DNA of 64,000 bases from Candidatus Rifleibacterium amylolyticum (GCA_009917695.1 JAACJG010000012.1:1-64000), one strand, 5' to 3'. Shown: positions 4,716 to 63,883, numbered from the stretch's first letter. Notes: generated from the letters alone by a model not told the origin. A program made the numbers and translations.

Positions 4716-5330
4716 TCAGTTTCGCAGAGTACCGTGGATCGAACAATGAAAGAGTCTTCTGCCGTCTTTATAGATAATTGAATATTTGCCCCCGCGCGGG
4801 CACTCGGGTATTTCCTGTAGTGCGCCGACTTCTACCAGCTTTTCGGCGCTGAACTTGGTCATGCGCGAACCAGTTTTGCGGTCGTAAAACAACACAGCAA
4901 GAATCAGCGATCGCATCCGCGCGAAACACTTTACCCTGAAATCTTTTTCGTACTCTTCAATCTTATTGAGTGAATCCTGGTAATCTGTTCTGGCCCGGGT
5001 ATATGGCTTGAAGAGATCACGGTCTTTTTGGATGTTTATTTTGGTTGTGTCGGTCTGGGAAATTTTTTGTATCAGCTCGAGATAAGATGTCTGATAGTTC
5101 TGGTGGACTTCCTGGAACCTTAACTGCTCAAAAAGTGTCTTCTCACCGACATCTTCGATTGCGATCGGATTGCCGCGATAGGCCTCCGGGTCGTAGTCGG
5201 ATATGGGAGTCTTCCATTGCAGCCAGTTTGCGGCAAAAGCAAAAACGGCCAGGAAAACGAAAAGCATTCCCAGCCAGTAAAGATGCTGTCCAGAAAAAAT
5301 TTCTTTGCTGTTCACTTGATTCAGGTTCAT
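4716..5330 (-). CDS. Single-pass membrane protein with a pseudopilin-like Cys/HG tail motif
   Basis: A 204-residue protein with a membrane segment at about residues 18-36, then a charged, coiled-coil-like middle. The C-terminal motif CPRGGKY, then about a dozen residues, then HCSIHG, resembles the CPxGG...CxxHG ending common in bacterial pilin-like and competence-pilin-like proteins. The N-terminus lacks a clear prepilin peptidase site: there is no Gly-Phe-x-x-x-Glu at the membrane segment. It may therefore be a pilin-associated protein or an unrelated one that shares the tail motif. It is a monocistronic-looking gene, divergent from the FHA gene. Confidence 0.7.
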   Translation of the reverse strand: MNLNQVNSKEIFSGQHLYWLGMLFVFLAVFAFAANWLQWKTPISDYDPEAYRGNPIAIEDVGEKTLFEQLRFQEVHQNYQTSYLELIQKISQTDTTKINIQKDRDLFKPYTRARTDYQDSLNKIEEYEKDFRVKCFARMRSLILAVLFYDRKTGSRMTKFSAEKLVEVGALQEIPECPRGGKYSIIYKDGRRLFHCSIHGTLRN

Positions 5331-5406: not shown

Positions 5407-5434
5407 TTGAAGAAACTTCGTCTTATGATATAAT
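5407..5434 (+). promoter_or_regulatory. Sigma-70 promoter with extended -10, driving the FHA/kinase/phosphatase operon
   Basis: TTGAAG at 5407 and a perfect TATAAT at 5429 are spaced by 16 bases, with TG one base upstream of the -10 hexamer. The predicted start near 5441 leaves a leader of about 26 bases with a strong G-rich ribosome binding site before the ATG at 5467. Confidence 0.7.
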
Positions 5435-5466
5435 CCGTGCTCATAAGTACACGGGGGGAAGTAAAA

Positions 5467-6645
5467 ATGTCTGACGAATCCAAAAAGACCGTCTTCAGAA
5501 AAGTTGTAGTTCCCGAGGAAATGAAAAAGAAGTTTCTTGTCGGGAATTCTGCACCATATTTGGGCAAGCCAATTGAGCTGCCTGCCGGTTCGTCTTTTAC
5601 TATTGGCCGCGAAGAAGGCAGGACCTTGCAGCTGCCCAGCGATATGGTTTCGCGACTTCACGCCACCATCGAATCTCGCGATGGTAAGATCGTTCTCATC
5701 GACCAGGAAAGCTCCAATGGCACCACCCTCAATGGTGAGCAGATAACCCCGCTCGACGCCTATGTGCTTTCTCACAAAGATGTAGTCAAGTTCGATACTT
5801 TTGAATTTATCTATGTCGATACTGCGGTTGGTGACATCTGGCAGACGCTCAAACCGCTTTCACGCGAAGGCTCTCAGATTGTTTCTTTCTATAGCCCCAA
5901 GGGTGGTAGCGGTATCAGCTCTATTGTCGTTAATCTTGCCTACATTCTTGCGAAAAAGTCTGAAAAGAAAGTTGCAATTGTCGATCTTGATCTGCGTTTT
6001 GGCGACATTCTAACTTTCATGAACGGTAAAATCGGTGCTTCGATAACTGAGCTGACCCGGGAAACCGAGATAACTCCCGAAAACATAGTAAATTATATGC
6101 ACAAGGGTCCGGATTTTGATTATCTGCCAGCTCCCAAGAAGTCTGAGCATGCAGATCTCGTGAACTCTGGCCATATAAAGTCAATTCTCTGGAGTCTGCA
6201 GTCAAAGTATGACTTTGTACTGGTCGATCTCAAGAGTGAAATCGATGATATCAGCATCACCAGCTGGGAACTCTCGAATCTGATTTTTCTGGTTGCATTA
6301 CCCGAAATCGGCCATCTGCTGGCCGCCCGCCGCGTTATCGAAATCATGAACACTTTCAAATATCCCGAAAGCAAGTTCAAGCTTCTGGTTAACAAGGTTG
6401 GCCGTGAGGGCGCAGTCAGTGCCGAAGAGGTAAAAGCTTTCCTCAAAAAGGATATTACCACTCTGGCCTATGCCCCGGAAGACTCGATTCTTACATCAAA
6501 CGGCGGCAAGCTGCTGTTGAACGAAAAGCCTTCGTCGCCTCTCACTCAGGGTTTGATAAACCTGAATCGTATGATTGTTGGAGAAGAGATGATTACCGAA
6601 GAAGGTGGCATCTTTTCTAAATTGAAATCGATGCTGGGTCTCTGA
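5467..6645 (+). CDS. FHA domain fused to a CpaE/TadZ/MinD-like ATPase domain with a degenerate Walker A
   Basis: A 392-residue protein. The FHA phosphothreonine-binding domain covers about residues 25-118, with GR at 47-48, SRLH at 62-65 and SNG at 83-85, the conserved phosphopeptide-binding positions. The ParA/MinD-like domain covers about 137-375. Its deviant Walker A reads KGGSGIS at 145-151, so the signature first Lys is kept but the phosphate-binding Lys is Ile150. Degenerate Walker A loops are known in TadZ/CpaE pilus-localising proteins. The ATG at 5467 is chosen over one at 5437 because GGGGGGAAG sits just before it. It is first in an operon with the kinase and PP2C genes. The FHA head most likely reads phosphorylation by that kinase, which is inferred from neighbourhood. 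Confidence 0.85.
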   Translation: MSDESKKTVFRKVVVPEEMKKKFLVGNSAPYLGKPIELPAGSSFTIGREEGRTLQLPSDMVSRLHATIESRDGKIVLIDQESSNGTTLNGEQITPLDAYVLSHKDVVKFDTFEFIYVDTAVGDIWQTLKPLSREGSQIVSFYSPKGGSGISSIVVNLAYILAKKSEKKVAIVDLDLRFGDILTFMNGKIGASITELTRETEITPENIVNYMHKGPDFDYLPAPKKSEHADLVNSGHIKSILWSLQSKYDFVLVDLKSEIDDISITSWELSNLIFLVALPEIGHLLAARRVIEIMNTFKYPESKFKLLVNKVGREGAVSAEEVKAFLKKDITTLAYAPEDSILTSNGGKLLLNEKPSSPLTQGLINLNRMIVGEEMITEEGGIFSKLKSMLGL

Positions 6646-6675
6646 TAATACTGAATCCTACCAGAGAGAATCTGT

Positions 6676-8475
6676 TTGGCTGACTATTCTAATAAACGGG
6701 CAGGAAACTATACCATCCTCAAAAAAATCGGCGATGGTGGTTTCGCGACCGTCTATCTCGCTCAGCATTCCGTGCTTGAGAAAAAGGCAGCGGTTAAGTT
6801 CTTGCTTGAGGACTGGGTTGATGAGGCTGATGTGGTGTCGCGCTTTTTTGACGAAGCCCGCACCATGGAGCGACTGCACGACAACCCGAATATAGTCAAG
6901 ATCATCGATATCGCAACTGTCGAAAAGTGTGCTGAAGAAGGTCTGCCGCCTTACTTCATCATGGAATATATCGACGGCCGCTCGCTTGAAGAATTTGTTA
7001 AATCTGACGAAGCGTTTACGCTCGAAGATATTGTAAAAATCATGTCCTGCGCTCTCTCAGCCCTGCAGCACTGTCATGATATGGGCGTCGTACACCGCGA
7101 TGTCAAGCCGAGTAATTTTATGATCACCAAAAGTGGTGATGTTAAGCTGACTGACTTCGGTATTGCCAAGGCAACGATCAACACCAGTAAAACCGGTGAG
7201 GGTTTGACTCTTGGTTCTACTGATTATATGTCGCCTGAACAGGCACTCGGCAAACGCGATCTTGATTATCGTTCAGACATTTATTCGCTGGGCGTTTCAC
7301 TTTATCAGATGGTCTGCGATCGTCTGCCCTTCATCGGGGACAGTCCGAACGCCATCGCCCTGATGCACATTCAGGAGAAGCTCGTTCCTCCGGTCGAGAT
7401 TATTCCTGATATTCCGATGCGACTCAATGACATTATCGTCAAAGCCATGGCTAAAGATCGCGAACATCGATTCCAGTCGTGCAATGAAATGCTTGAAGAA
7501 TTGCGTAAGCTCGATCAGCCTTATGAGCCGAGCCTGCAAATGCCGGCAGTAGATATTACCGGGATGCATGATGAATTGATCGAAGATCATATCACCGGCG
7601 TCCATTCAACAGCTGATGGAGCTACCACCTCACAGGTTGTGGCCACCAAACCACCGGCCTCGCTTATCAATGCTATTCGTGTCTTTCTGATTATCATTGG
7701 CTTTACCTTGCTGTTTCTGCTTGTATTCAAAGGATTGAACTACCTCACGCGCACTCGACTTATAATCGATACTTATCCGAAAGGCGCTGCCGTAATACTT
7801 AACAATGACCGGATAGGCAGCAGTCCGATAGATATCTACCTTCCACCCATGGGCTATCTCATAACTCTGAGCAAGCCTGGACATGCGACTTCAAGCTATT
7901 ACTACGAGCTTGCTGCCAGACAAACGCTTAACCTCAACCGCAAGCTGTTTGAGTTAGAACCGGCCGAACTGAAGGCCTTTGGCGGGAAACTGGCTGCTCT
8001 GGGAACAGCGCTTGAAAATCTGCCTGACGAAGCGCCAAAGAACAAGAGAGAGCTGCCTGAATATCAGCAGCAGCTTGCCGAAATCGAAAAATCCTGGGAA
8101 AGTCTCTTCGAAATTTTGCGTGACAACTGTGACGATGAGAGATTCAACCAGAGCTTTATCGATTTCTGTAAAAAGACTTCAGAGATCAGAAAGGCAGAGT
8201 CCTTTTATGACAGATTGCTCTTAGAAAAGCCCACTGCAATGGTTTACGCTTTCGCCGGCAGTCTGAAAATGCAGCAGAGGAACACCAAGGAAGCGCTCAG
8301 GCTTTACATGGAAGCCTGGACAAGAGATCAGAACAGCAGATATCTGTTAAATGCTCTCGGAGACTTCTTTATCGCCGATAAAAAGCTGGAAAAGGCAAAG
8401 CAATACCTTGAGATGTCTCTATTTCTTTATCCAGAACAGGATGAGATTCGTAAGAAACTGGCTGAAATGAATTGA
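6676..8475 (+). CDS. Membrane Hanks-type Ser/Thr protein kinase with PEGA and TPR domains
   Basis: A 599-residue kinase starting at TTG, 30 bases after the FHA gene. The kinase domain is at about 10-275: glycine loop GDGGFATVY at 19-27, Lys41 in AVKF, catalytic loop HRDVKPSN at 140-147, DFG at 160-162 and SPEQ near 186. All key residues are present, so it should be active. One membrane helix lies at about 330-352. It is followed by a PEGA-type beta domain at about 356-412, then a helical region with TPR-like repeats to the end. The kinase is therefore cytoplasmic, with an extracytoplasmic PEGA/TPR sensor. Its neighbours supply a phosphothreonine reader (FHA) and an eraser (PP2C). Confidence 0.92.
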   Translation: MADYSNKRAGNYTILKKIGDGGFATVYLAQHSVLEKKAAVKFLLEDWVDEADVVSRFFDEARTMERLHDNPNIVKIIDIATVEKCAEEGLPPYFIMEYIDGRSLEEFVKSDEAFTLEDIVKIMSCALSALQHCHDMGVVHRDVKPSNFMITKSGDVKLTDFGIAKATINTSKTGEGLTLGSTDYMSPEQALGKRDLDYRSDIYSLGVSLYQMVCDRLPFIGDSPNAIALMHIQEKLVPPVEIIPDIPMRLNDIIVKAMAKDREHRFQSCNEMLEELRKLDQPYEPSLQMPAVDITGMHDELIEDHITGVHSTADGATTSQVVATKPPASLINAIRVFLIIIGFTLLFLLVFKGLNYLTRTRLIIDTYPKGAAVILNNDRIGSSPIDIYLPPMGYLITLSKPGHATSSYYYELAARQTLNLNRKLFELEPAELKAFGGKLAALGTALENLPDEAPKNKRELPEYQQQLAEIEKSWESLFEILRDNCDDERFNQSFIDFCKKTSEIRKAESFYDRLLLEKPTAMVYAFAGSLKMQQRNTKEALRLYMEAWTRDQNSRYLLNALGDFFIADKKLEKAKQYLEMSLFLYPEQDEIRKKLAEMN

Positions 8476-8487
8476 CCGGGAGGAAAT

Positions 8488-9249
8488 GTGCGTTATTCGG
8501 CTTACGGTAATACGCATGTAGGAAAGGTCCGAGATCATAACGAGGATTCTTTTTTCGTTTCGGATGAAGGCGGATTTTTCATCGTAGCTGACGGCATGGG
8601 AGGCCTTGCCGCCGGCGAAGTCGCATCGAAAATAGCTAAAGATACTATTTCGAAGGCGCTGAAAAAGACTGGCGACTCAGCAACGCCTTTTGACAGAGTT
8701 TTACGCGAGGCTATTGAAGAAGCCAATGCCCGCGTCAGAGAAGCTCTGGTTGAAAATCCCTCCGCGAGAGGCATGGGCAGCACCTGTGTCGTGCTGGCTT
8801 TTAAAGACGGCGATTTTTATATTGCTTATGTTGGCGACAGCAGAATTTATCTGTTCCGCAACAACCATCTCAAGCAGATCACCCGCGATCATTCTTATGT
8901 TGAAGAATTGTTTCTACGCGGTCTGATTAGTGCGGAAGAAAAAGTCGACCATCCTTACAAGAGTTCAATTACCAGATATATTGGACATGCTGAAAAGATA
9001 GAAGTGGACATTACTTCAGGGCCATTGTCGAACGATGATGTTTTCCTGCTTTGCTCAGATGGTCTGACCGGAGAGGTTCCTGACAATCTTATAGAAGAGG
9101 TTCTCAAAACTACTCCCGATATCAAAGACGGTGTAGATAAGCTGATCGCGATGGCTCTCGAACATGGCGGCAATGACAATATAAGCGTCATTGCGGTCAA
9201 GGTCGAAAAGAAGAAGCCAGGATTCTTTAAAAAGCTCTTCAACTGGTAA
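8488..9249 (+). CDS. PP2C-family Ser/Thr protein phosphatase
   Basis: A 253-residue metal-dependent phosphatase of the PrpC/Stp type. Metal-binding and signature motifs are in the expected order: RDHNEDS near 15, ADGMGG near 35, GSTCV near 94, GDSR near 112, SDGLTGEV near 190 and GGNDNISV near 230. The length is that of a bare catalytic domain with no membrane segment. It begins with GTG at 8488, with GGAGG only four bases upstream, 12 bases after the kinase stop. It almost certainly reverses the action of the adjacent kinase, as in other bacterial kinase/phosphatase operons. The C-terminus is basic. Confidence 0.93.
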   Translation: MRYSAYGNTHVGKVRDHNEDSFFVSDEGGFFIVADGMGGLAAGEVASKIAKDTISKALKKTGDSATPFDRVLREAIEEANARVREALVENPSARGMGSTCVVLAFKDGDFYIAYVGDSRIYLFRNNHLKQITRDHSYVEELFLRGLISAEEKVDHPYKSSITRYIGHAEKIEVDITSGPLSNDDVFLLCSDGLTGEVPDNLIEEVLKTTPDIKDGVDKLIAMALEHGGNDNISVIAVKVEKKKPGFFKKLFNW

Positions 9250-9292
9250 CAATCAGTCACCAGTAAAAAGAGCCTGCGCTTTTGCAGAAAGT

Positions 9293-10510
9293 TCAGTTCA
9301 GCCCGAATACTTCCTTGATCAGCGAGAACATGTTCCAGGTGCCTTTTTCAAATTCTTCGCCGGTTAGAGTTGCGCACAGCTTTTTCATTGCCATCAGAAC
9401 ATCTGAACCTTCGCTGGTCTTTGATAAGACGAAAGGAATGCCTTTGTTAACCGATGGGACTACGATATTCCCTTCGCTGGGAATGAAATGACTGATGGCA
9501 TAGCGCAGTGATTTCTCTACCTTGGCGGGTTCCAGCCCCATTGATTTAAAGGCGCGATTCAGCACAACCTTGATTTTGTCGCGCGGAATTTTTATGCGTT
9601 GCAGCAGGTCGAGCAGCAATTTTGTATTTTTGATGAAAGTCAGTTCCATGGTCATCATCAACATGATCAGGTCGCTGATTTCCAGAATCTTGAGCTCAAG
9701 TTCTGAGAGCTGGTTGTGCGTATCTATAATAACAAAATCATAATTAGCTCTGAGAATATCAACTATATGCTCGACCAGCATCGGTTTTATCGTTTCAGCC
9801 AGTTCTGGCATCGGTGGTGGCAGCAATACCTTGAGGCCACTGGGGTGGGAAGTCAATTCCTTCTCGATGTGTGCCAGCTTGATTGGCGGCCTTTCGGTAA
9901 CCAGCTTGTGAATGTGATTATCAGAAGGCAGCCCGAGTAGAATAGCCTGATCGCCAAAAGCCAGGTTCATGTCGAGCAGCACAACTTTCTTTTTCCAGTA
10001 GCGTGCGAGCATTACGGCAGTGTTTGCTGCGATAACCGATTTGCCGGCGCCGCCTTTGACGTTGAAAAAGGTTATTACCTTGCCGGCCTGCGTCTTGCTC
10101 ATACCCTCTTCCAGCAGTTGTGGAGCCCGGCGGGTGTAAAGGTCGCGAGACTCTTTGGCAAAGCCGGGGTAGAGGCCGATCAGGCGCAGAAACTCATTTT
10201 TAGGAAGATACATCAGGTGAAATTCCTGATAACCTACCAGAGTGGCCAGCGAAGGAGTGCCGTTGAGTATCTCGACTTCTCCGTATGTGTCGCCAGGATC
10301 GAGATTGAAGAGGGTGTTTTTGCGCTGGCGATAGGTTTTGGTGACTGTCAGCTGCCCCTCTACAACAAATATGAGTTCATCTAGCGCTTCTTTTTCTTTG
10401 ATTATGACGGTGCCGGATGCGTATTTCTTGAAACGGCAGACCTTTTTCAGCTTCTCAATTTCTCGTGACGGAAGTGTGCTGAAGAATGGAAAAATCTTGA
10501 AATCAATCAT
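9293..10510 (-). CDS. cNMP-binding domain fused to a MinD/CpaE-like ATPase
   Basis: A 405-residue protein with a Crp-type cyclic-nucleotide-binding beta-roll at about residues 8-125 and no helix-turn-helix. A ParA/MinD ATPase domain follows at about 143-390. The Walker A is canonical, KGGAGKS at 152-158, and a Walker B-like LLDMNLAFGD lies near 183. It mirrors the FHA-headed gene in layout but has an intact nucleotide site. It is convergent with the kinase operon. Whether the roll binds cAMP, c-di-GMP or nothing is unknown, because the usual cAMP-contacting Arg context is not clear. The family suggests positioning of a complex at the membrane or pole, and the C-terminal helix is amphipathic. 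Confidence 0.85.
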   Translation of the reverse strand: MIDFKIFPFFSTLPSREIEKLKKVCRFKKYASGTVIIKEKEALDELIFVVEGQLTVTKTYRQRKNTLFNLDPGDTYGEVEILNGTPSLATLVGYQEFHLMYLPKNEFLRLIGLYPGFAKESRDLYTRRAPQLLEEGMSKTQAGKVITFFNVKGGAGKSVIAANTAVMLARYWKKKVVLLDMNLAFGDQAILLGLPSDNHIHKLVTERPPIKLAHIEKELTSHPSGLKVLLPPPMPELAETIKPMLVEHIVDILRANYDFVIIDTHNQLSELELKILEISDLIMLMMTMELTFIKNTKLLLDLLQRIKIPRDKIKVVLNRAFKSMGLEPAKVEKSLRYAISHFIPSEGNIVVPSVNKGIPFVLSKTSEGSDVLMAMKKLCATLTGEEFEKGTWNMFSLIKEVFGLN

Positions 10511-10601: not shown

Positions 10602-10648
10602 AAAAAAATAGGGTAAACTAAAAATACATGTGTGAAGGGGGCCCTAAG

Positions 10649-11893
10649 ATGAACTTCTCTGCCAAAACCTTTATATTGCTGACTATGATACTGATGTGCG
10701 GGTTGCTGACGGCTGGTCAGAGCCCTTTCAGCTCAGACAAGGTCAGTGTGTCAGGATATGGCGATACATCTGGAGCAAGCCAGGCTCTATCGCCGGTTGT
10801 CGATGGCAAAAAAGAATCCGGAACCGTAGTCGTCGACGGCAGCCTGAATATTAGAAACAAGCCATGGGGTGACATCACCGGAAATCTCAAGAATGGTGCG
10901 AAAGTTACCATTATCGGTTCTCTTGGCGATTGGTACAAGGTTTCTGTTAACGGCAAAACAGCTTACGTGCACTCTGCTTACGTTAAGCGGCAGGGTGAAG
11001 GCGCCAAGTCATTTCCCAGCAGTGGCCGGGTTAACGCCAAAATCGGTCTCAATGTGCGCCGCGTTCCAAATGGTGACAAGGTTGGTGCCCTCAAATACAA
11101 TAGCAGCGTCACCATTCTTGGCGTAATTGGTGACTGGTACAAAATCAAATGGGGCAATAACGAAGCTTTCGTTCACAAGAATTACATCACTCCGACTTCA
11201 TCTTCGGCTCCTGTTGCTGCCACTCCATCTGATGGTGTACAGAAGCTTGATTTTACCGGCTATGTTACTGCTTCAGCGCTCAACGTCAGAAAATCGCCCT
11301 GGGGCGCAATTGACGGCACTCTTCCCAATGGTATCGCGGTTAAAGTCACCGGCAAAAAAGACGACTGGTATCGAATAGATTACAACGGCAAAATCAGATA
11401 CGTTCACAGCAAATATATTTCCAAAAGCAAGCCTGCAACCTCTTCTCCTGGCACTTCAACTCCTCCGGTTGCCGCAGGCAATCTACAGAAACGTATCGTG
11501 ACCGAAGCGCGCAGACTCATCGGCAGTACGGCCTTCAGAACCGCCGACGTTGGCTATGGCAATCTTGCCTGTGCCAAGGTCGTTACTACTGCTCTCAAGA
11601 ACGCCGGTGCTCTGAGTAAAGTTCATCTCAACGTGAGATCAACCGTTGCCGACCTCAAGTCGAAGGGATGGAAAGAAGTAAGAGTGCCACCTTTCAGAGA
11701 AGGCGATGTTATCACCTGGAAAACGTATGATTACACCGGTGACGGAGTTAAAGACCCAGACACCCACGTAGGTATTATGGTTAAAGAAGGCAACAGCTAT
11801 ATGGCAATGAACAATTCCTCGCGATTGCGCACGCCAAGGCTGGCTGATCCTTATTCTATCGGCCCGATCACCAGAGTTCTGAGAAAGGTTTGA
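10649..11893 (+). CDS. Exported protein with three SH3b domains and a C-terminal NlpC/P60-like or CHAP-like peptidase domain
   Basis: A 414-residue secreted protein. A signal peptide covers about residues 1-24. Three bacterial SH3 domains follow, each with an LN[IV]R core and DWYK/DWYR, at about 55-112, 122-180 and 202-262, joined by Ser/Pro-rich linkers. The C-terminal 140 residues contain YGNLACAKVV, with a candidate catalytic Cys, and DTHVGIMV, with a candidate His. This is the layout of cysteine peptidoglycan hydrolases. It probably binds and trims cell wall. The ATG at 10649 is preferred over 10628 because GAAGGGGG precedes it. It heads a run of three exported-protein genes. Confidence 0.8.
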   Translation: MNFSAKTFILLTMILMCGLLTAGQSPFSSDKVSVSGYGDTSGASQALSPVVDGKKESGTVVVDGSLNIRNKPWGDITGNLKNGAKVTIIGSLGDWYKVSVNGKTAYVHSAYVKRQGEGAKSFPSSGRVNAKIGLNVRRVPNGDKVGALKYNSSVTILGVIGDWYKIKWGNNEAFVHKNYITPTSSSAPVAATPSDGVQKLDFTGYVTASALNVRKSPWGAIDGTLPNGIAVKVTGKKDDWYRIDYNGKIRYVHSKYISKSKPATSSPGTSTPPVAAGNLQKRIVTEARRLIGSTAFRTADVGYGNLACAKVVTTALKNAGALSKVHLNVRSTVADLKSKGWKEVRVPPFREGDVITWKTYDYTGDGVKDPDTHVGIMVKEGNSYMAMNNSSRLRTPRLADPYSIGPITRVLRKV

Positions 11894-16307: not shown

Positions 16308-18725
16308 ATGGTTTTAAACAGCCCTGATCCTGATGAAATTTACGATCCAAATGAAGAAGACGAAGATTCTGAGACGATTACCCAGAAGGTGATCGGTTGG
16401 CTCTGGTTTTTTTTCAAACTTGGTTTTGTCTTGACGCTGATTACGATTGTTATCGTGACTGGCGCCGTAATTGGCATTGTCAAAGGCTTCTCCGAAAAAA
16501 TTCCAATTATCTCAGACAGCTCTTATCGGCCTAATCTGACTTCGCAGGTTTTTGACTGCAAAGGGCGGCTGCTGGCCAAGCTGCATGCCGAGGAAAACCG
16601 TACCCGTATTCTTTCGGCTAAAGAAATACCTGATAATATGAAGCATGCGGTTGTGGCCATTGAAGATGAACGTTTTTACAGCCACTACGGCATCGACATC
16701 GTGGGTATAACGCGTGCCATGGTCAAGAACATTCAGGCTGGCAGAGTTGTTCAGGGAGCTTCTACTCTGACACAACAGCTGGTCAAGAATGCTTTTCTGA
16801 CCAGCGAAAAAACCTTCAAACGCAAGGCCATAGAAGCTATGATGGCCTTTCAGATTGAACGTAAGTATTCCAAAGAAGAGATTCTGACTCTTTATCTCAA
16901 CGAAATTTATTTCGGCCACGGCGCTTATGGCCTTGCCGCTGCTGCCGAGATATATTTTGGCAAAGATCCCATGGAACTGACTATCTCTGAGTGTGCTATG
17001 CTGGCTGGTATTCCCAAGAGTCCGGTAGCTTATTCCCCGATCAGAAACCCGAAGAATAATGAGATTCGACGCGCGACCGTTCTTGCCAAAATGGTCGAGC
17101 TCGGCTTCATTTCGCCGGCAGAATACGAAGCAGCCAAAAGCGTAATCCCAACCGTCCGCAAAATCGAAGCTCAGGAATTTGCAGCGCCTTATTTTGTAAC
17201 CTATGTGCGCGATCAGCTGCTTGAAAAGTATGGTGCTAACCTGGTTTACAATGGCGGTTTAAAGATTTACACCACACTTGATTTCGATCTTCAGCAGTAT
17301 GCTGAAACGGCAATGGCTTCAGCCCCGATTTTCAAAGAGTACCCCATCGAAAAGTTTCCGGGTTTGAATGGTTCTCTGGTCTGCCTCGATCCTAAAAATG
17401 GCCACATTAAAGCAATGTATGGTGGTAGAAGCTTTGAGCAGTCGCAATTTAACCGGGTAACTCAGGCATATCGCCAGCCCGGCTCATCTTTCAAGCCTTT
17501 TGTTTATGCCGCAGCACTCGAAGAAGGTATGCTGCCAGGCGATACCGTAGTAGACGAATACATCGCCTACACCAACCCCTGGACCCGCAAGGTCTGGGCA
17601 CCCAAAAACTACGACCACAAGTATCACGGCACGGTCACTCTTATGAAAGCGCTGTGCCGAAGCTTCAACATCCCTGCGGTTAAGCTGATCGACCGCTTGA
17701 CACCGGCCAAGGTCATAAGATTCGCCAAACGCATGGGAATAACCGCACAGATGGAGCCAAACCTGTCTCTGGCTCTGGGTTCAGGCCAGTTTACCCCTCT
17801 GGAAATGGCGTCGAGCTACGGCGTTTTCGCCAATATGGGTATTCTCTGTCGCCCGCTTTCGATCCTGAAAGTGGAAGATCGTGACGGTAATATTCTTGAA
17901 GAGAACCTGCCGCGAGCCAAAGAAGTAATGAAGGCAGTCAACGCGGCCATGATATGCGATATGCTGCGAACCGCGGTTGAGCGAGGCACAGGAGCCAGGG
18001 CGCGGATTCCTGGCAAGGCGATTGCCGGTAAGACTGGTACGACTAATGACTACGTCGATGCCTGGTTCAACGGCATGTCACCCGATCTCGTGACCATTGT
18101 GCAGTTTGGCTTCGATATGCCCCGCACGCTTGGCAAAGGCAAGGCCGGCGGTTCTGTCGCTGGCCCGGTCTGGAAAGCATTTATGGAAAAAGCCCTCGAA
18201 CATCATCCGAATAAAGACTTCCCAGTGCCTGATGGTGCTGTTCGTACGCGCGTCTGCATGAGCAGCGGCAAGCTGGCTTCACGAAGCTGCCCGGGCAATG
18301 AGGTGGTAAGCCAGGTGTTTCCTATTGAGTCACAGCCCTTAACCGAATGCCGACACGGTGCTGTCGCTTATTCGCAGAGTGTTGCCGGCGAAGTCGAAGA
18401 TATGAGCCCGCAACAGGCAGAGGGCACTTTTTTGCCTGACCCAGACTTCTTTCACAGTAATTATCAGTCCGGACAGACTGCAGTTGCTGGAACACCCCAG
18501 GTAGTCAAGCCACCGGCAGTTCAGGGAGAGTGGATTTCACGCGACAACCCCGATCGCGCAGTTTTGCAGCGCTGGGGTGCCGATCGCCCGATTCCTGCTG
18601 ATGCTTTTATCGACGAAAGTCTGGCGGATGCTCCGGCAGTAGAAGAAGATTCTCCAGAGCCGGTCAGAGAGCCTGGAGTCGTTATCAACCCACCCGGCGT
18701 GGAGTTTCGCGACAGCTATCACTGA
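16308..18725 (+). CDS. mrcA: Class A penicillin-binding protein (PBP1A-type), transglycosylase/transpeptidase
   Basis: An 805-residue bifunctional peptidoglycan synthase. An N-terminal membrane helix lies at about 35-60. The GT51 glycosyltransferase domain has EDERFYSH near 117, GASTLTQQLVKN near 150 and KEEILTLYLNEIYFG near 190. The transpeptidase domain has the active-site SSFK at 393-396, SFN near 450 and KTGT near 575. All catalytic motifs are intact. The last 150 residues are a Pro-rich extension after a small Cys-containing segment. This is the main cell-wall polymerase in the window, next to the folC-namZ pair but divergent from it. Confidence 0.95.
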   Translation: MVLNSPDPDEIYDPNEEDEDSETITQKVIGWLWFFFKLGFVLTLITIVIVTGAVIGIVKGFSEKIPIISDSSYRPNLTSQVFDCKGRLLAKLHAEENRTRILSAKEIPDNMKHAVVAIEDERFYSHYGIDIVGITRAMVKNIQAGRVVQGASTLTQQLVKNAFLTSEKTFKRKAIEAMMAFQIERKYSKEEILTLYLNEIYFGHGAYGLAAAAEIYFGKDPMELTISECAMLAGIPKSPVAYSPIRNPKNNEIRRATVLAKMVELGFISPAEYEAAKSVIPTVRKIEAQEFAAPYFVTYVRDQLLEKYGANLVYNGGLKIYTTLDFDLQQYAETAMASAPIFKEYPIEKFPGLNGSLVCLDPKNGHIKAMYGGRSFEQSQFNRVTQAYRQPGSSFKPFVYAAALEEGMLPGDTVVDEYIAYTNPWTRKVWAPKNYDHKYHGTVTLMKALCRSFNIPAVKLIDRLTPAKVIRFAKRMGITAQMEPNLSLALGSGQFTPLEMASSYGVFANMGILCRPLSILKVEDRDGNILEENLPRAKEVMKAVNAAMICDMLRTAVERGTGARARIPGKAIAGKTGTTNDYVDAWFNGMSPDLVTIVQFGFDMPRTLGKGKAGGSVAGPVWKAFMEKALEHHPNKDFPVPDGAVRTRVCMSSGKLASRSCPGNEVVSQVFPIESQPLTECRHGAVAYSQSVAGEVEDMSPQQAEGTFLPDPDFFHSNYQSGQTAVAGTPQVVKPPAVQGEWISRDNPDRAVLQRWGADRPIPADAFIDESLADAPAVEEDSPEPVREPGVVINPPGVEFRDSYH

Positions 18726-28938: not shown

Positions 28939-29252
28939 TGGACAACGCCCGTTGGATGGTGATTTTATCAGTGGTAGTGAGCATGATGCTGACTTTGACC
29001 CTGCTCAATCGCTATGCCCGCAGTCAGCGCCCTGAAACGCCTGTTGTGGTTGAAGAGACCAGTCAGGCCGCGGCGCCAAGAGCTGCAGAGGTGCGCCGCC
29101 CGCAGGTTCATCATTCTTCACGAGGCGTGATACCGACTTATCACAAGGTCAGTTTTCCAAAACCAGCGGCCCATACTTTCGCGGTCGATCAGCCAAAGGA
29201 TGCTGAAAAAATGAAAGAATCTCTGAAGGTCGAAGGCAACATAATCAGATGA
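28938..29252 (+). CDS. Small membrane-anchored protein in the pilin operon
   Basis: A 104-residue protein with one N-terminal membrane helix at about residues 6-24 and a Pro/Ala/Arg-rich, probably disordered tail. Its ATG overlaps the stop of the large pseudopilin (TGATG) and its end overlaps the next gene by four bases (ATGA), so it is tightly coupled to the pilin genes. No prepilin site is present. It may be an assembly or anchoring factor for the pseudopilus, which is inferred from position only. Confidence 0.65.
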   Translation: MDNARWMVILSVVVSMMLTLTLLNRYARSQRPETPVVVEETSQAAAPRAAEVRRPQVHHSSRGVIPTYHKVSFPKPAAHTFAVDQPKDAEKMKESLKVEGNIIR

Positions 29253-29812
29253 ATTCGCTTAAAGATAGCGTACGCAGTGGCATAGGTTTTGTAGAAGTTC
29301 TTGTTGCGGTGCTCATCGCGGCCGTCAGCGCTGTTCCGGTCGTTTACATGGTTTCTTCTTCGCGAACCGACACCAGTAAAGCCATAAACTACCTGCGCGC
29401 GGTCGAGCTTGCCAACGAAGTCATCGAATGGGCTCAAGGTGTTGATTTTGACGATCTCGACAGTGTTACCTTTTCGACTTATGTCGGGACACTGGCCGAT
29501 GATTCTACCGGCGCGATTACTCCGATGCCGGTAGGCGCGGCTGTTCCGCCAAACCCCTATTGGGCTTCCGGCAATTTCTCAGCAGATAGCCTCAAATACT
29601 CTGAGCAATATGGCAATGCTTTCTTTTTTCGTGAGGTTGAATTCGAAGACGTTACCGGTTCGATGAACTTCAGCGACGGCATGATAAAAAGGATGACGGT
29701 GCGCGTAAAATGGAACGAAGGCAGCGCCCCTTCTTCTGTTTATAATTCCGAACGTGATCGTCAGGTTGAGCTTTCGGTTCTTCTGCTCAACGACGCGAAC
29801 ATGAACTATTAG
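29249..29812 (+). CDS. Minor type IV pilin, PilV/GspI-like
   Basis: A 187-residue prepilin-like protein. The leader ends at Gly12 or Gly14, followed by FVEVLVAVLIA, a class-III signal with Glu at position +3 of the hydrophobic segment. One long hydrophobic helix (to about 35) leads into a polar C-terminal domain. It overlaps the preceding gene by four bases and is followed nine bases later by a PilW-like gene. Together with the GspK-like gene this forms a minor-pilin set that would prime a type IV or type II pseudopilus. Confidence 0.8.
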   Translation: MNSLKDSVRSGIGFVEVLVAVLIAAVSAVPVVYMVSSSRTDTSKAINYLRAVELANEVIEWAQGVDFDDLDSVTFSTYVGTLADDSTGAITPMPVGAAVPPNPYWASGNFSADSLKYSEQYGNAFFFREVEFEDVTGSMNFSDGMIKRMTVRVKWNEGSAPSSVYNSERDRQVELSVLLLNDANMNY

Positions 29813-29820
29813 GTGACACC

Positions 29821-30519
29821 ATGACACATTCAGCTTATCAAGTGCGCCGACGCGGTTTTACTTTCGTTGAAATGGCAATGACGGTTGGCATTGCCCTGTT
29901 GGTTTTTCTCATGATCTATCGCTTCATGTCGAGTACCCGCATGCATTACATGTATGGCACCGTAAATCTGCAGAATCTCCAGGAAGCACGCATGGCGATC
30001 AACTATCTGCGTCGTGATTTCTCGTGTGCCACGCCTTACATCGCCGGTCAGGATCAGGTTGACTATATCAATATGCAGAAAGCCCAGAATTTTGTGTTTG
30101 AAACCCCGGGCTGGACGCCAATTCCCGACGTGAATCTGATTAAATGCGATACCGACAGTCTGAGTATTCCAAAATTCGCATTTGGATCGCCAGATGAAGA
30201 GCCCCGTATCGAATATGTCACCTATACCTACGAGCCTGGCAACATTCTCAGCCGCAAACTTCTCGATGCTACCGGCAATCTCAAGAAAGAAGTTCAGTTT
30301 TCCGGCATAGAAAATGTCGAGTTCAAACTTTATACGCACAAGTTGAATCCAGATGTCCCTGTGCTCTGGGTTAAACTGCTGATACATGACAAAAGCACCT
30401 ATGGCAGCGACGAAATCGGCAAGGCTCTCGAAGTTACCGCATCGATTTCCAGCCCCTTCATAACCAGTCTGGTCAATCATCGCAACTGGCGTTTTGAAAC
30501 CGGTCACAAGGAATTATAA
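29821..30519 (+). CDS. Minor type IV pilin, PilW/GspJ-like
   Basis: A 232-residue prepilin-like protein. The leader ends RRRG at residue 12 and is followed by FTFVEMAMTVGIALLVF, with Glu five residues into the mature chain, the classic prepilin signature. The rest of the sequence, with segments such as ARMAINYLRRDF and YTYEPGNILSRKL, resembles PilW/GspJ proteins. It is the last gene of the four-gene pilin operon. A frame of similar length lies antisense but has no pilin leader and no ribosome binding site. Confidence 0.85.
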   Translation: MTHSAYQVRRRGFTFVEMAMTVGIALLVFLMIYRFMSSTRMHYMYGTVNLQNLQEARMAINYLRRDFSCATPYIAGQDQVDYINMQKAQNFVFETPGWTPIPDVNLIKCDTDSLSIPKFAFGSPDEEPRIEYVTYTYEPGNILSRKLLDATGNLKKEVQFSGIENVEFKLYTHKLNPDVPVLWVKLLIHDKSTYGSDEIGKALEVTASISSPFITSLVNHRNWRFETGHKEL

Positions 30520-61946: not shown

Positions 61947-62297
61947 ATGTCAGAAGAATTCTCTCTAACGCATCAGGTTGATGATAATGTGCTGATCATC
62001 AGAACCAATGGTTATTTGAACGACCTGGGCGCTGAGCAGGTTGACGAGATCTGTTCCGAGCATCTCGAAAAATCGATCAACAAAATCGTCATCAATCTTG
62101 AGCAGTCGCCGCTGATCAACAGTATAGGAATATCAATTCTGATAGGCGTCATAGAAGCGATCGAGGAATCGGAAGGTGCGCTGGCATTCACTAACTTAAC
62201 CCCAACTAACCGCAAAACTTTTGAAATGATGGGGCTTTTGCAGTTTGCACAGCCCTTCGATAAAGAAGAAGAAGCCGTAGCAAAATTTAAGGGTTAA
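61947..62297 (+). CDS. STAS-domain protein, anti-sigma-factor-antagonist-like
   Basis: A 116-residue single STAS domain of the SpoIIAA/RsbV type. The expected phosphorylation Ser is Ser59 in LINSIGISIL, with Asn in place of the usual Asp before it. Such proteins bind and release anti-sigma kinases in partner-switching systems. No anti-sigma kinase is in the window. It is followed by a GGDEF gene after five bases, so it may instead regulate that cyclase. Confidence 0.85.
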   Translation: MSEEFSLTHQVDDNVLIIRTNGYLNDLGAEQVDEICSEHLEKSINKIVINLEQSPLINSIGISILIGVIEAIEESEGALAFTNLTPTNRKTFEMMGLLQFAQPFDKEEEAVAKFKG

Positions 62298-62302
62298 GTC
62301 TC

Positions 62303-63883
62303 ATGTCTGAGCAGATGTCTGACCTTGAACAGAAAATGCAGCAGCAGGTGCTGCGCTATGAGTATGTTCTGGAAGCCCTCAGTGATATTGGCGATGAGCT
62401 TTGTCGCGTCAGCAGCTTTGATGCTCAGCTGAAGTCTCTTTTACACCTTCTTCTCGGCACCCTTGGCGTTCGCAAGGGAGGCATTTTTCTCTTCGAAAAC
62501 TATACGAAGAAGGTATCCCTGCGTTGCTCCTGGAAACTCGTTCACAAAACTTACGATTTTGAACTCGAGCAGGATGAAGTCAAACTGCTCGAAGACGAAT
62601 CCGCTGAAATCACGCATCGGGTCAAAGATTTCCCGCATCTTAAAAACTGTCTGCAGGATTTTACAGAAGACAATCTTGACTGTATCTCTGTCCTGAAGGT
62701 TAGAGAAAAGCTCATCGGTTTTCTCGTAGTCGGTCATAAACTCAAAGAAGTGCCTCTCACCGACAAAGAAATGAGCTTTCTCAAGACTCTTTCTCGAAAC
62801 ATTTCGGTTGCTATAAATAACTTTCTTCTTCTCTCTGAGCTGCGCGAAGCAAACGTAAGGCTCGACGAGAAGATCCAGGAAGTCAGTATTCTTTATCAGG
62901 CATCGCAGATGATTTCGTCAGAGCTGCAGTTGCAGGCTCTGCTCGATATGGCGATGAGTGCTATCTCTGAAATTACCGATATAGAGCGCGGTTCTACCTG
63001 GCTTTACGATGAAGAACATCGCTCGTTCAACCTGATGAGCCATCTTGGCGATGCAACAGAGCTGCCAGACGCCCTGTCGCTCGAAGATTCAGAAATATTA
63101 CAGATGGCACAGGACCGCAAAGAATCATTTGAATACGAGCAGGGCAGGTCAGAGAAGCCGGCAACGCTCAAACGCCTTGACGAGAAGGTTTTTGGCCGTT
63201 CATTTGTTGTCGTTCCAATTCTTAATCAGGGCGAGTTTCTTGGCCTCGTGCATCTGTGCGCTGCCGAATCGGCAAAAGGTTTTACCAATCGTGACATAAG
63301 GCTGATCAAGGTTTTTGCCGTGCAGCTGGGGGCTGCCGTTAAGAACGCGCAGCTTTATGAGCAGGCTATTACCGATGGTATGACCAAGCTTTATCTGCAC
63401 CGCTACTTCAAACAGCGCCTGCTCGATGAAATAAAGCGCGCTGCAAGATTCAAACGCAGTCTTGCTCTGATAATGGTCGATATCGATCACTTCAAGTGTC
63501 TGAATGACAATTATGGCCATCAGACCGGAGATGATGTACTGAGACATGTGGCAGCCATACTGCGCCGCGCTGTGCGTACACACGATCTGCCGGTTCGCTA
63601 TGGTGGTGAAGAATTTGCTCTGGTACTGCCAGAAACCGATATGACCGGGGCAGTTGCTGTAGCCGAGCGTGTGCGGCGTTCCATCGAAAACGATTATCTC
63701 GAAGTGTCTGGGGTCGTGCACAAGATCAGCGCGAGCTTTGGTGTTTCAGTGTTCCCTGACTGCGCTGACGATATGGATTCTTTGATAAAGGCTGCCGACG
63801 TTGCACTCTACTGGTCTAAAGAACACGGCCGCAACCAGGTTACCGCCGCCCCTTCGAAAGTATCGCGCGAGGCTGATATTTAA
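62303..63883 (+). CDS. Diguanylate cyclase with two GAF domains
   Basis: A 526-residue soluble protein. GAF domains lie at about 30-180 and 200-350. The GGDEF domain (about 360-515) has active-site RYGGEEF and a canonical inhibitory RxxD (RTHD) upstream, so product inhibition is likely, unlike the cyclase at 22042. It has no membrane segment, so it acts in the cytoplasm. It is co-transcribed with the STAS gene. Its stop codon overlaps the convergent partial gene at the right edge. Confidence 0.92.
   Translation: MSEQMSDLEQKMQQQVLRYEYVLEALSDIGDELCRVSSFDAQLKSLLHLLLGTLGVRKGGIFLFENYTKKVSLRCSWKLVHKTYDFELEQDEVKLLEDESAEITHRVKDFPHLKNCLQDFTEDNLDCISVLKVREKLIGFLVVGHKLKEVPLTDKEMSFLKTLSRNISVAINNFLLLSELREANVRLDEKIQEVSILYQASQMISSELQLQALLDMAMSAISEITDIERGSTWLYDEEHRSFNLMSHLGDATELPDALSLEDSEILQMAQDRKESFEYEQGRSEKPATLKRLDEKVFGRSFVVVPILNQGEFLGLVHLCAAESAKGFTNRDIRLIKVFAVQLGAAVKNAQLYEQAITDGMTKLYLHRYFKQRLLDEIKRAARFKRSLALIMVDIDHFKCLNDNYGHQTGDDVLRHVAAILRRAVRTHDLPVRYGGEEFALVLPETDMTGAVAVAERVRRSIENDYLEVSGVVHKISASFGVSVFPDCADDMDSLIKAADVALYWSKEHGRNQVTAAPSKVSREADI

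Follow-up and report, generated by a model that had tools for sequence, protein, structure and literature searches.

Within a 64,000-nucleotide stretch of DNA from Candidatus Rifleibacterium amylolyticum (GCA_009917695.1 JAACJG010000012.1:1-64000; below, the window), taken from contig 12 of a 5.39 Mb Riflebacteria genome (G000), four intact genes occupy positions 5467-10510 and, judged by gene content and order among relatives, are one module, present in a single family among the 40 Riflebacteria genomes compared. They encode an FHA domain fused to a MinD/CpaE-type ATPase domain (FHA-MinD), a transmembrane Hanks-type Ser/Thr kinase, a PP2C phosphatase and, convergently, a second MinD-type protein headed by a CRP fold (CRP-fold-MinD). 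The best reading of these genes is a set of writer, eraser and reader arranged around a MinD/CpaE-type ATPase. More specifically, we propose a dedicated signalling module in which phosphorylation of the N-terminal tail would switch FHA-MinD, with CRP-fold-MinD acting as its catalytic partner, and give this proposal an even chance of being correct. Ortholog alignments show strong conservation of the catalytic residues of kinase and phosphatase, of the P-loop of CRP-fold-MinD and of the FHA pocket, while FHA-MinD itself, by analogy with GarA, OdhI and DgcB, is probably a self-binding switch placed on a CpaE/TadZ-type pseudo-ATPase.

The domain composition announced in a preliminary description of this region, namely an operon of FHA-MinD, a Hanks kinase with PEGA and TPR and a PP2C phosphatase, together with a convergent MinD gene headed by a cNMP-binding roll, was confirmed throughout by Pfam: FHA (4e-17) and AAA_31 in FHA-MinD; Pkinase (4e-50), PEGA (1e-9) and TPR_19 in the kinase; PP2C_2 (9e-17) in the phosphatase; cNMP_binding (2e-14) and AAA_31 (9e-13) in CRP-fold-MinD. 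Positions and strands given there hold as well (Table 1), whereas the canonical P-loop of FHA-MinD and the cyclic-phosphate-binding residue of the “cNMP” head are both missing. Gaps of 30 and 12 bp within the trio fit one operon, and the CRP-fold-MinD gene approaches the phosphatase stop codon to within 43 bp. ATG 5467 is a more likely start of FHA-MinD than GTG 5437, because most orthologs start there and a G-rich ribosome-binding-like stretch (GGGGGGAAG) lies upstream; position 5407, from which the region had originally been counted, coincides with a promoter-like site (5407-5434).

Linkage, the firmest finding here, was followed across 40 genomes of the phylum. FHA-MinD orthologs (48-88% identity) were found in 18, all from the window's own family (f1), and CRP-fold-MinD orthologs (57-88% identity) in 15, all among these 18. 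The gene after FHA-MinD is the kinase in each of the 16 genomes whose contig includes it, and PP2C comes next in 15 of them, the exception being the divergent G009, whose kinase can be recognised by its catalytic part alone and has no PP2C beside it. CRP-fold-MinD is convergent with the trio wherever the contig extends far enough, except in genus g6, which retains both ATPases though unlinked. Within the family, CRP-fold-MinD accompanies FHA-MinD in 15 of 18 genomes and occurs in none of the six without it (12/12 versus 0/2 among genomes at least 90% complete). The kinase ectodomain, weak TPR-like matches aside, is single-copy in 17 genomes and always located here. Conserved linkage in relatives had been chosen beforehand as the test of whether these genes belong together, and its clear presence upholds the original grouping. 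A single scan of public genome contigs returned four relatives, of which three carry a Riflebacteria label and the fourth the label Methylomirabilis; the latter (L010, Candidatus Methylomirabilis) has the same gene content as contig 41 of G006, from the Riflebacteria family, and is probably a mislabelled bin.

In the window, a gene of pilin-like C-terminus (gene X) and a gene for an SH3_3-repeat protein enclose approximately 5.3 kb holding exactly the four module genes, and in genomes lacking the module the same two flanks are spaced by 366 bp (G014), 369 bp (G015) or 295 bp (G022). As read from this gene order, the borders of the module are clean; X and the SH3 gene, both kept where the module is lost, are neighbours and nothing more. 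In a FastTree phylogeny of concatenated flanking genes, G022 is nested in its module-bearing genus, and G014 and G015 in a larger, well-supported module-bearing clade with weak inner branches; such a tree would fit two separate events, each removing all four genes at once. G018 and G023 also lack the module, with the region missing or cut by the contig end, and are uninformative on loss.

In the alignment of 18 FHA-MinD orthologs the phosphothreonine-pocket residues (G-R, S-R-x-H, N-G) are complete and invariant, and so is a Lys-Thr pair (Lys7-Thr8, counted from ATG 5467) in a tail that reads K-T-V-F-R-K in the window; among the seven FHA proteins of the genome only FHA-MinD has the motif KT[VI][FY]R[KR]. 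In the PDB, the FHA part matches chains of GarA, OdhI and DgcB, among others, and the NCBIfam OdhI equivalog is far from reached (19.3 bits versus a cut-off of 200), the ETTS motif being unmatched. Apart from a phospho-switch, the protein might serve as a docking scaffold only, with an FHA domain that reads phosphothreonine of the kinase or at some other site, and conservation of the tail threonine would then have a different cause. Such recruitment has a precedent in PknG, whose own N-terminal segment attracts OdhI/GarA once autophosphorylated (PMC8546545), and the activation-loop threonines of the kinase (T178 and T182) are indeed invariant. Its juxtamembrane segment, however, contains no invariant threonine, while the tail threonine of FHA-MinD is kept in 18/18 orthologs, and we find simple docking rather doubtful.

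The ATPase part of FHA-MinD retains the signature (first) lysine, the Walker A' aspartate and the Walker B aspartate. Since its catalytic GK lysine is replaced by Ile or Leu in 18/18 orthologs, since the P-loop of the nearest PDB structure (3ea0, a ParA-family ATPase, E 2e-24) reads KGGDGGSC and likewise lacks this lysine, and since a deviant Walker A has a precedent in TadZ/CpaE (PMC13170226), FHA-MinD is regarded as a probable pseudo-ATPase of CpaE/TadZ type, which may still bind nucleotide. CRP-fold-MinD, for which 3ea0 is also the best PDB match, has an intact Walker A motif of the canonical deviant MinD type (KGGAGKS) in 15/15 orthologs. Both proteins score below the cut-off of NCBIfam minD_bact (59.0 and 62.0 versus 212.9 bits).

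The CRP fold had been expected to supply a second-messenger input. In 15/15 orthologs, however, its phosphate-binding cassette (YGEVEILNGTPSLAT in the window) has Ser, Ala, Cys or Thr at the position of the PKA-type arginine, followed by Leu, whereas an arginine is retained by other MinD paralogs of this genome that have a cNMP head, so that a cyclic-nucleotide input is unsupported by the residues present. Most likely, the fold senses a different ligand or is a protein interface. The paralogs (at least four: L094, L095, L096 and L098) amount to an unusual expansion of sensor-headed MinD proteins, three having a degenerate P-loop and one being fused to a long TPR tail. At 61947-63883 the window also encodes a STAS protein followed by a GAF-GAF-GGDEF diguanylate cyclase, and homologs of both are located near CRP-fold-MinD and PBP1A in L091 (genus g6).

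Both ATPases, as well as the phosphatase in most genomes (GFFKKLFNW in the window), finish in short segments resembling the membrane-targeting helices of MinD. The helix of FHA-MinD (GGIFSKLKSMLGL) is conserved in orthologs whose C-terminus is present, and that of CRP-fold-MinD (TWNMFSLIKEVFGLN) contains TW[NS]MF in 15/15.

Catalytic residues of the kinase (K41, E60, D142, N147 and D160) and of the phosphatase (D35, D117, D191 and D230) are invariant in orthologs. The phosphatase passes the NCBIfam Stp1/IreP equivalog (252.8 versus 230 bits), and the kinase, with its single transmembrane segment near residues 333-356, is nearest in its catalytic domain to the PknB/Stk1 model. PknB/Stk1 with Stp1 regulate wall growth and division in Gram-positive bacteria, and MinD governs the division site in many bacteria; by the same token, the module might control cell-wall growth or the choice of division site. 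Besides the kinase and the Stp1-type phosphatase, a PBP1A gene nearby (16308-18725), the adjacency of CRP-fold-MinD and PBP1A in genus g6 and the wall-directed appearance of the downstream SH3 protein point the same way. Nevertheless, the kinase has PEGA and TPR in place of PASTA repeats and stays below the PknB_PASTA cut-off (318.6 versus 450 bits), and survival of the SH3 gene and X after loss of the module makes this neighbourhood independent of it. We consider a wall-related role unlikely, and place it on an equal footing with a pilus-type client.

In the latter alternative, a type IV pilus, a Tad pilus or a secretion machine would be placed or gated by the module, which would take its two inputs from the kinase and from a cyclic nucleotide. 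It draws on the proximity of the MinD part to 3ea0 and on the layout shared with CpaE/TadZ (sensor head, MinD domain, C-terminal helix), on a prepilin cluster directly after CRP-fold-MinD in G012, and on the kinase-FHA axis that positions the type VI secretion system (T6SS) in Acidovorax (PMC12607579). A minor-pilin operon (29249-30519) had been put forward as a possible client; it is one of many in a genome with 126 matches to the prepilin N-methyl motif, where 39% of positions sampled on nine contigs lie equally near (within 19 kb of) such a motif, and because of this density its proximity was rejected as evidence. PilT-family ATPases do not discriminate either, being found in 40/40 genomes with the module or without it (approximately 25 matches in G000). 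Identity with the Tad CpaE was rejected, since the Tad locus on contig C8 of the genome carries its own REC-headed CpaE, and G014 keeps a Tad locus despite absence of the module. Identity with the T6SS pathway was likewise dismissed: a search of the genome for the sheath family PF05943 (VipB/TssC) found no member. The arginine is also missing from the cNMP pocket, and we judge control of a pilus or secretion machine improbable. Gene X was rejected as a pilus link within the module on account of its retention in module-less genomes. Its product has no Pfam match and no prepilin leader, ends in a pilin-like pattern (CPxGGxYSI...CSxHG) and gave only a weak match to the pilin PilJ in a fold search (E 0.47); its anchor appears to switch in type, being a transmembrane segment in some genera and lipobox-like in G010, G011, G016 and G017.

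Returning to the tail-phosphorylation switch, the order of events may be imagined as follows. An envelope signal would reach the kinase through its PEGA/TPR ectodomain, and the kinase would then phosphorylate Thr8 of the tail. As in GarA/OdhI and DgcB, this phosphothreonine would be bound by an FHA domain, either within one subunit or between adjacent ones, and PP2C would reverse the modification. Such a transition could alter assembly of FHA-MinD or its binding to partners. Lacking the catalytic P-loop lysine, FHA-MinD would probably be a CpaE/TadZ-like membrane scaffold that does not hydrolyse nucleotide, while CRP-fold-MinD, whose P-loop is intact, may supply the catalysis, perhaps as one half of a mixed dimer, with a CRP fold that most likely senses something other than a cyclic nucleotide or provides a protein interface. 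A further extension, to which we assign low probability, is a mixed membrane complex of non-hydrolysing FHA-MinD and hydrolysing CRP-fold-MinD, the make-up of which would be set by the surface-reading kinase and the phosphatase, so that the kinase would directly control the place or the time of MinD-type action. If these steps are true, a single compact unit would tie bacterial Ser/Thr phosphorylation directly to a spatial ATPase of MinD/CpaE type, and there would be a defined residue (Thr8) and a defined pocket at which to test this. The two co-inherited MinD proteins, one putatively hydrolysing and the other putatively not, also offer a simple natural system for studying ATPase control.

Several observations weigh against the proposed switch. 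The tail has Arg at position +3 from the threonine, where FHA ligands usually have Ile, Leu, Val or Asp, and KTVFR, when aligned on V-F-R, falls one residue out of register with ETTSVFRAD of GarA. Structure prediction for FHA-MinD gave a poor model (pLDDT 53, from an alignment of five sequences), which lends no support to a docked tail. Hydrophobic moments of the C-terminal helices resemble those of known MinD tails and do not exceed those of shuffled sequences, thus making the tails only compatible with membrane targeting. Pairing of writer and reader is not forced, as about nine further kinase-domain matches and six further FHA proteins are present in the genome. Co-occurrence tests treat related genomes as if they were independent, and the joint losses say more about linkage than about function, because a single deletion removes adjacent genes. 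As a separate observation, a second Ser/Thr-kinase/FHA island is present at L156-L157 (G000 C1:391.7-414.3 kb), where an open reading frame (ORF) that joins a cyclase-like N-terminus to FHA and kinase domains is accompanied by another kinase, a double-kinase ORF and an FHA protein of the membrane.

Table 1. Features of the module and its flanks (positions counted from the first nucleotide of the window)
Feature	Position	Strand	Remark
Candidate sigma-70-like promoter, TTGAAG-16-TATAAT	5407..5434	+	5' of the trio; consensus match only
FHA-MinD: N-tail, FHA domain, CpaE/TadZ-type MinD domain, C-terminal helix	5467..6645	+	
Invariant Lys-Thr, predicted phospho-switch residue	5485..5490	+	18/18 orthologs
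Atypical Walker A KGGSGISS, catalytic GK lysine replaced by Ile/Leu	5899..5922	+	18/18 orthologs
Candidate membrane-targeting C-terminal helix of FHA-MinD	6604..6642	+	conserved where C-terminus is present
Transmembrane Hanks-type Ser/Thr kinase: kinase domain, transmembrane segment, PEGA and TPR outside	6676..8475	+	
Stp1/IreP-type PP2C phosphatase	8488..9249	+	
CRP-fold(cNMP-like)-MinD	9293..10510	-	convergent to the trio
Candidate membrane-targeting C-terminal helix of CRP-fold-MinD	9296..9343	-	TW[NS]MF in 15/15 orthologs
Phosphate-binding cassette without the Arg of cyclic-nucleotide binders	10241..10285	-	15/15 orthologs
Gene X: membrane-anchored, pilin-C-terminus-like	4716..5330	-	neighbour outside the module; kept in module-less genomes
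SH3_3-repeat secreted protein	10628..11893	+	neighbour outside the module; kept in module-less genomes

The preliminary description regarded this gene set as not belonging to any standard described system, which holds in part: co-encoding of kinase, PP2C and FHA protein is already known from T6SS, and what is new is the MinD fusion and the partner ATPase. A literature search limited to an open-access library turned up no description of an FHA-MinD fusion accompanied by its own kinase, phosphatase and partner MinD, and nothing combining FHA with CpaE/MinD or TadZ. In the threonine phosphorylation pathway of T6SS (PpkA/PppA/Fha, TagH), where a kinase-FHA axis positions the machine (PMC12607579), a membrane kinase, a PP2C and an FHA reader are likewise co-encoded; here, by contrast, the genome is without the sheath gene, the FHA protein is a MinD fusion and CRP-fold-MinD is additional. 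PknB/Stk1 with Stp1 share with the module a Hanks kinase domain beside an Stp1-type PP2C and differ from it in having PASTA rather than PEGA/TPR and no FHA-MinD upstream in the same operon. FHA domains binding their own phosphorylated N-tail are described for GarA/OdhI and for Bdellovibrio DgcB (PMC8546545, PMC6733907), and FHA-MinD resembles them in the conserved, candidate-phosphorylatable threonine of a disordered N-tail just before a pocket-complete FHA domain, although its output is of MinD type, K-T-V-F-R is not in register with ETTS and binding in cis is a prediction here. Finally, CpaE/TadZ of Tad pili are characterized by a deviant Walker A motif, an ATP-dependent dimer and a C-terminal amphipathic helix (PMC13170226). 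Proteins of the module have in common with them an N-terminal sensor head, a MinD-type domain with deviant or atypical Walker A and a candidate C-terminal amphipathic helix, yet their heads are FHA or CRP-fold instead of REC, and the module is located outside the Tad locus and comes with its own kinase and phosphatase.

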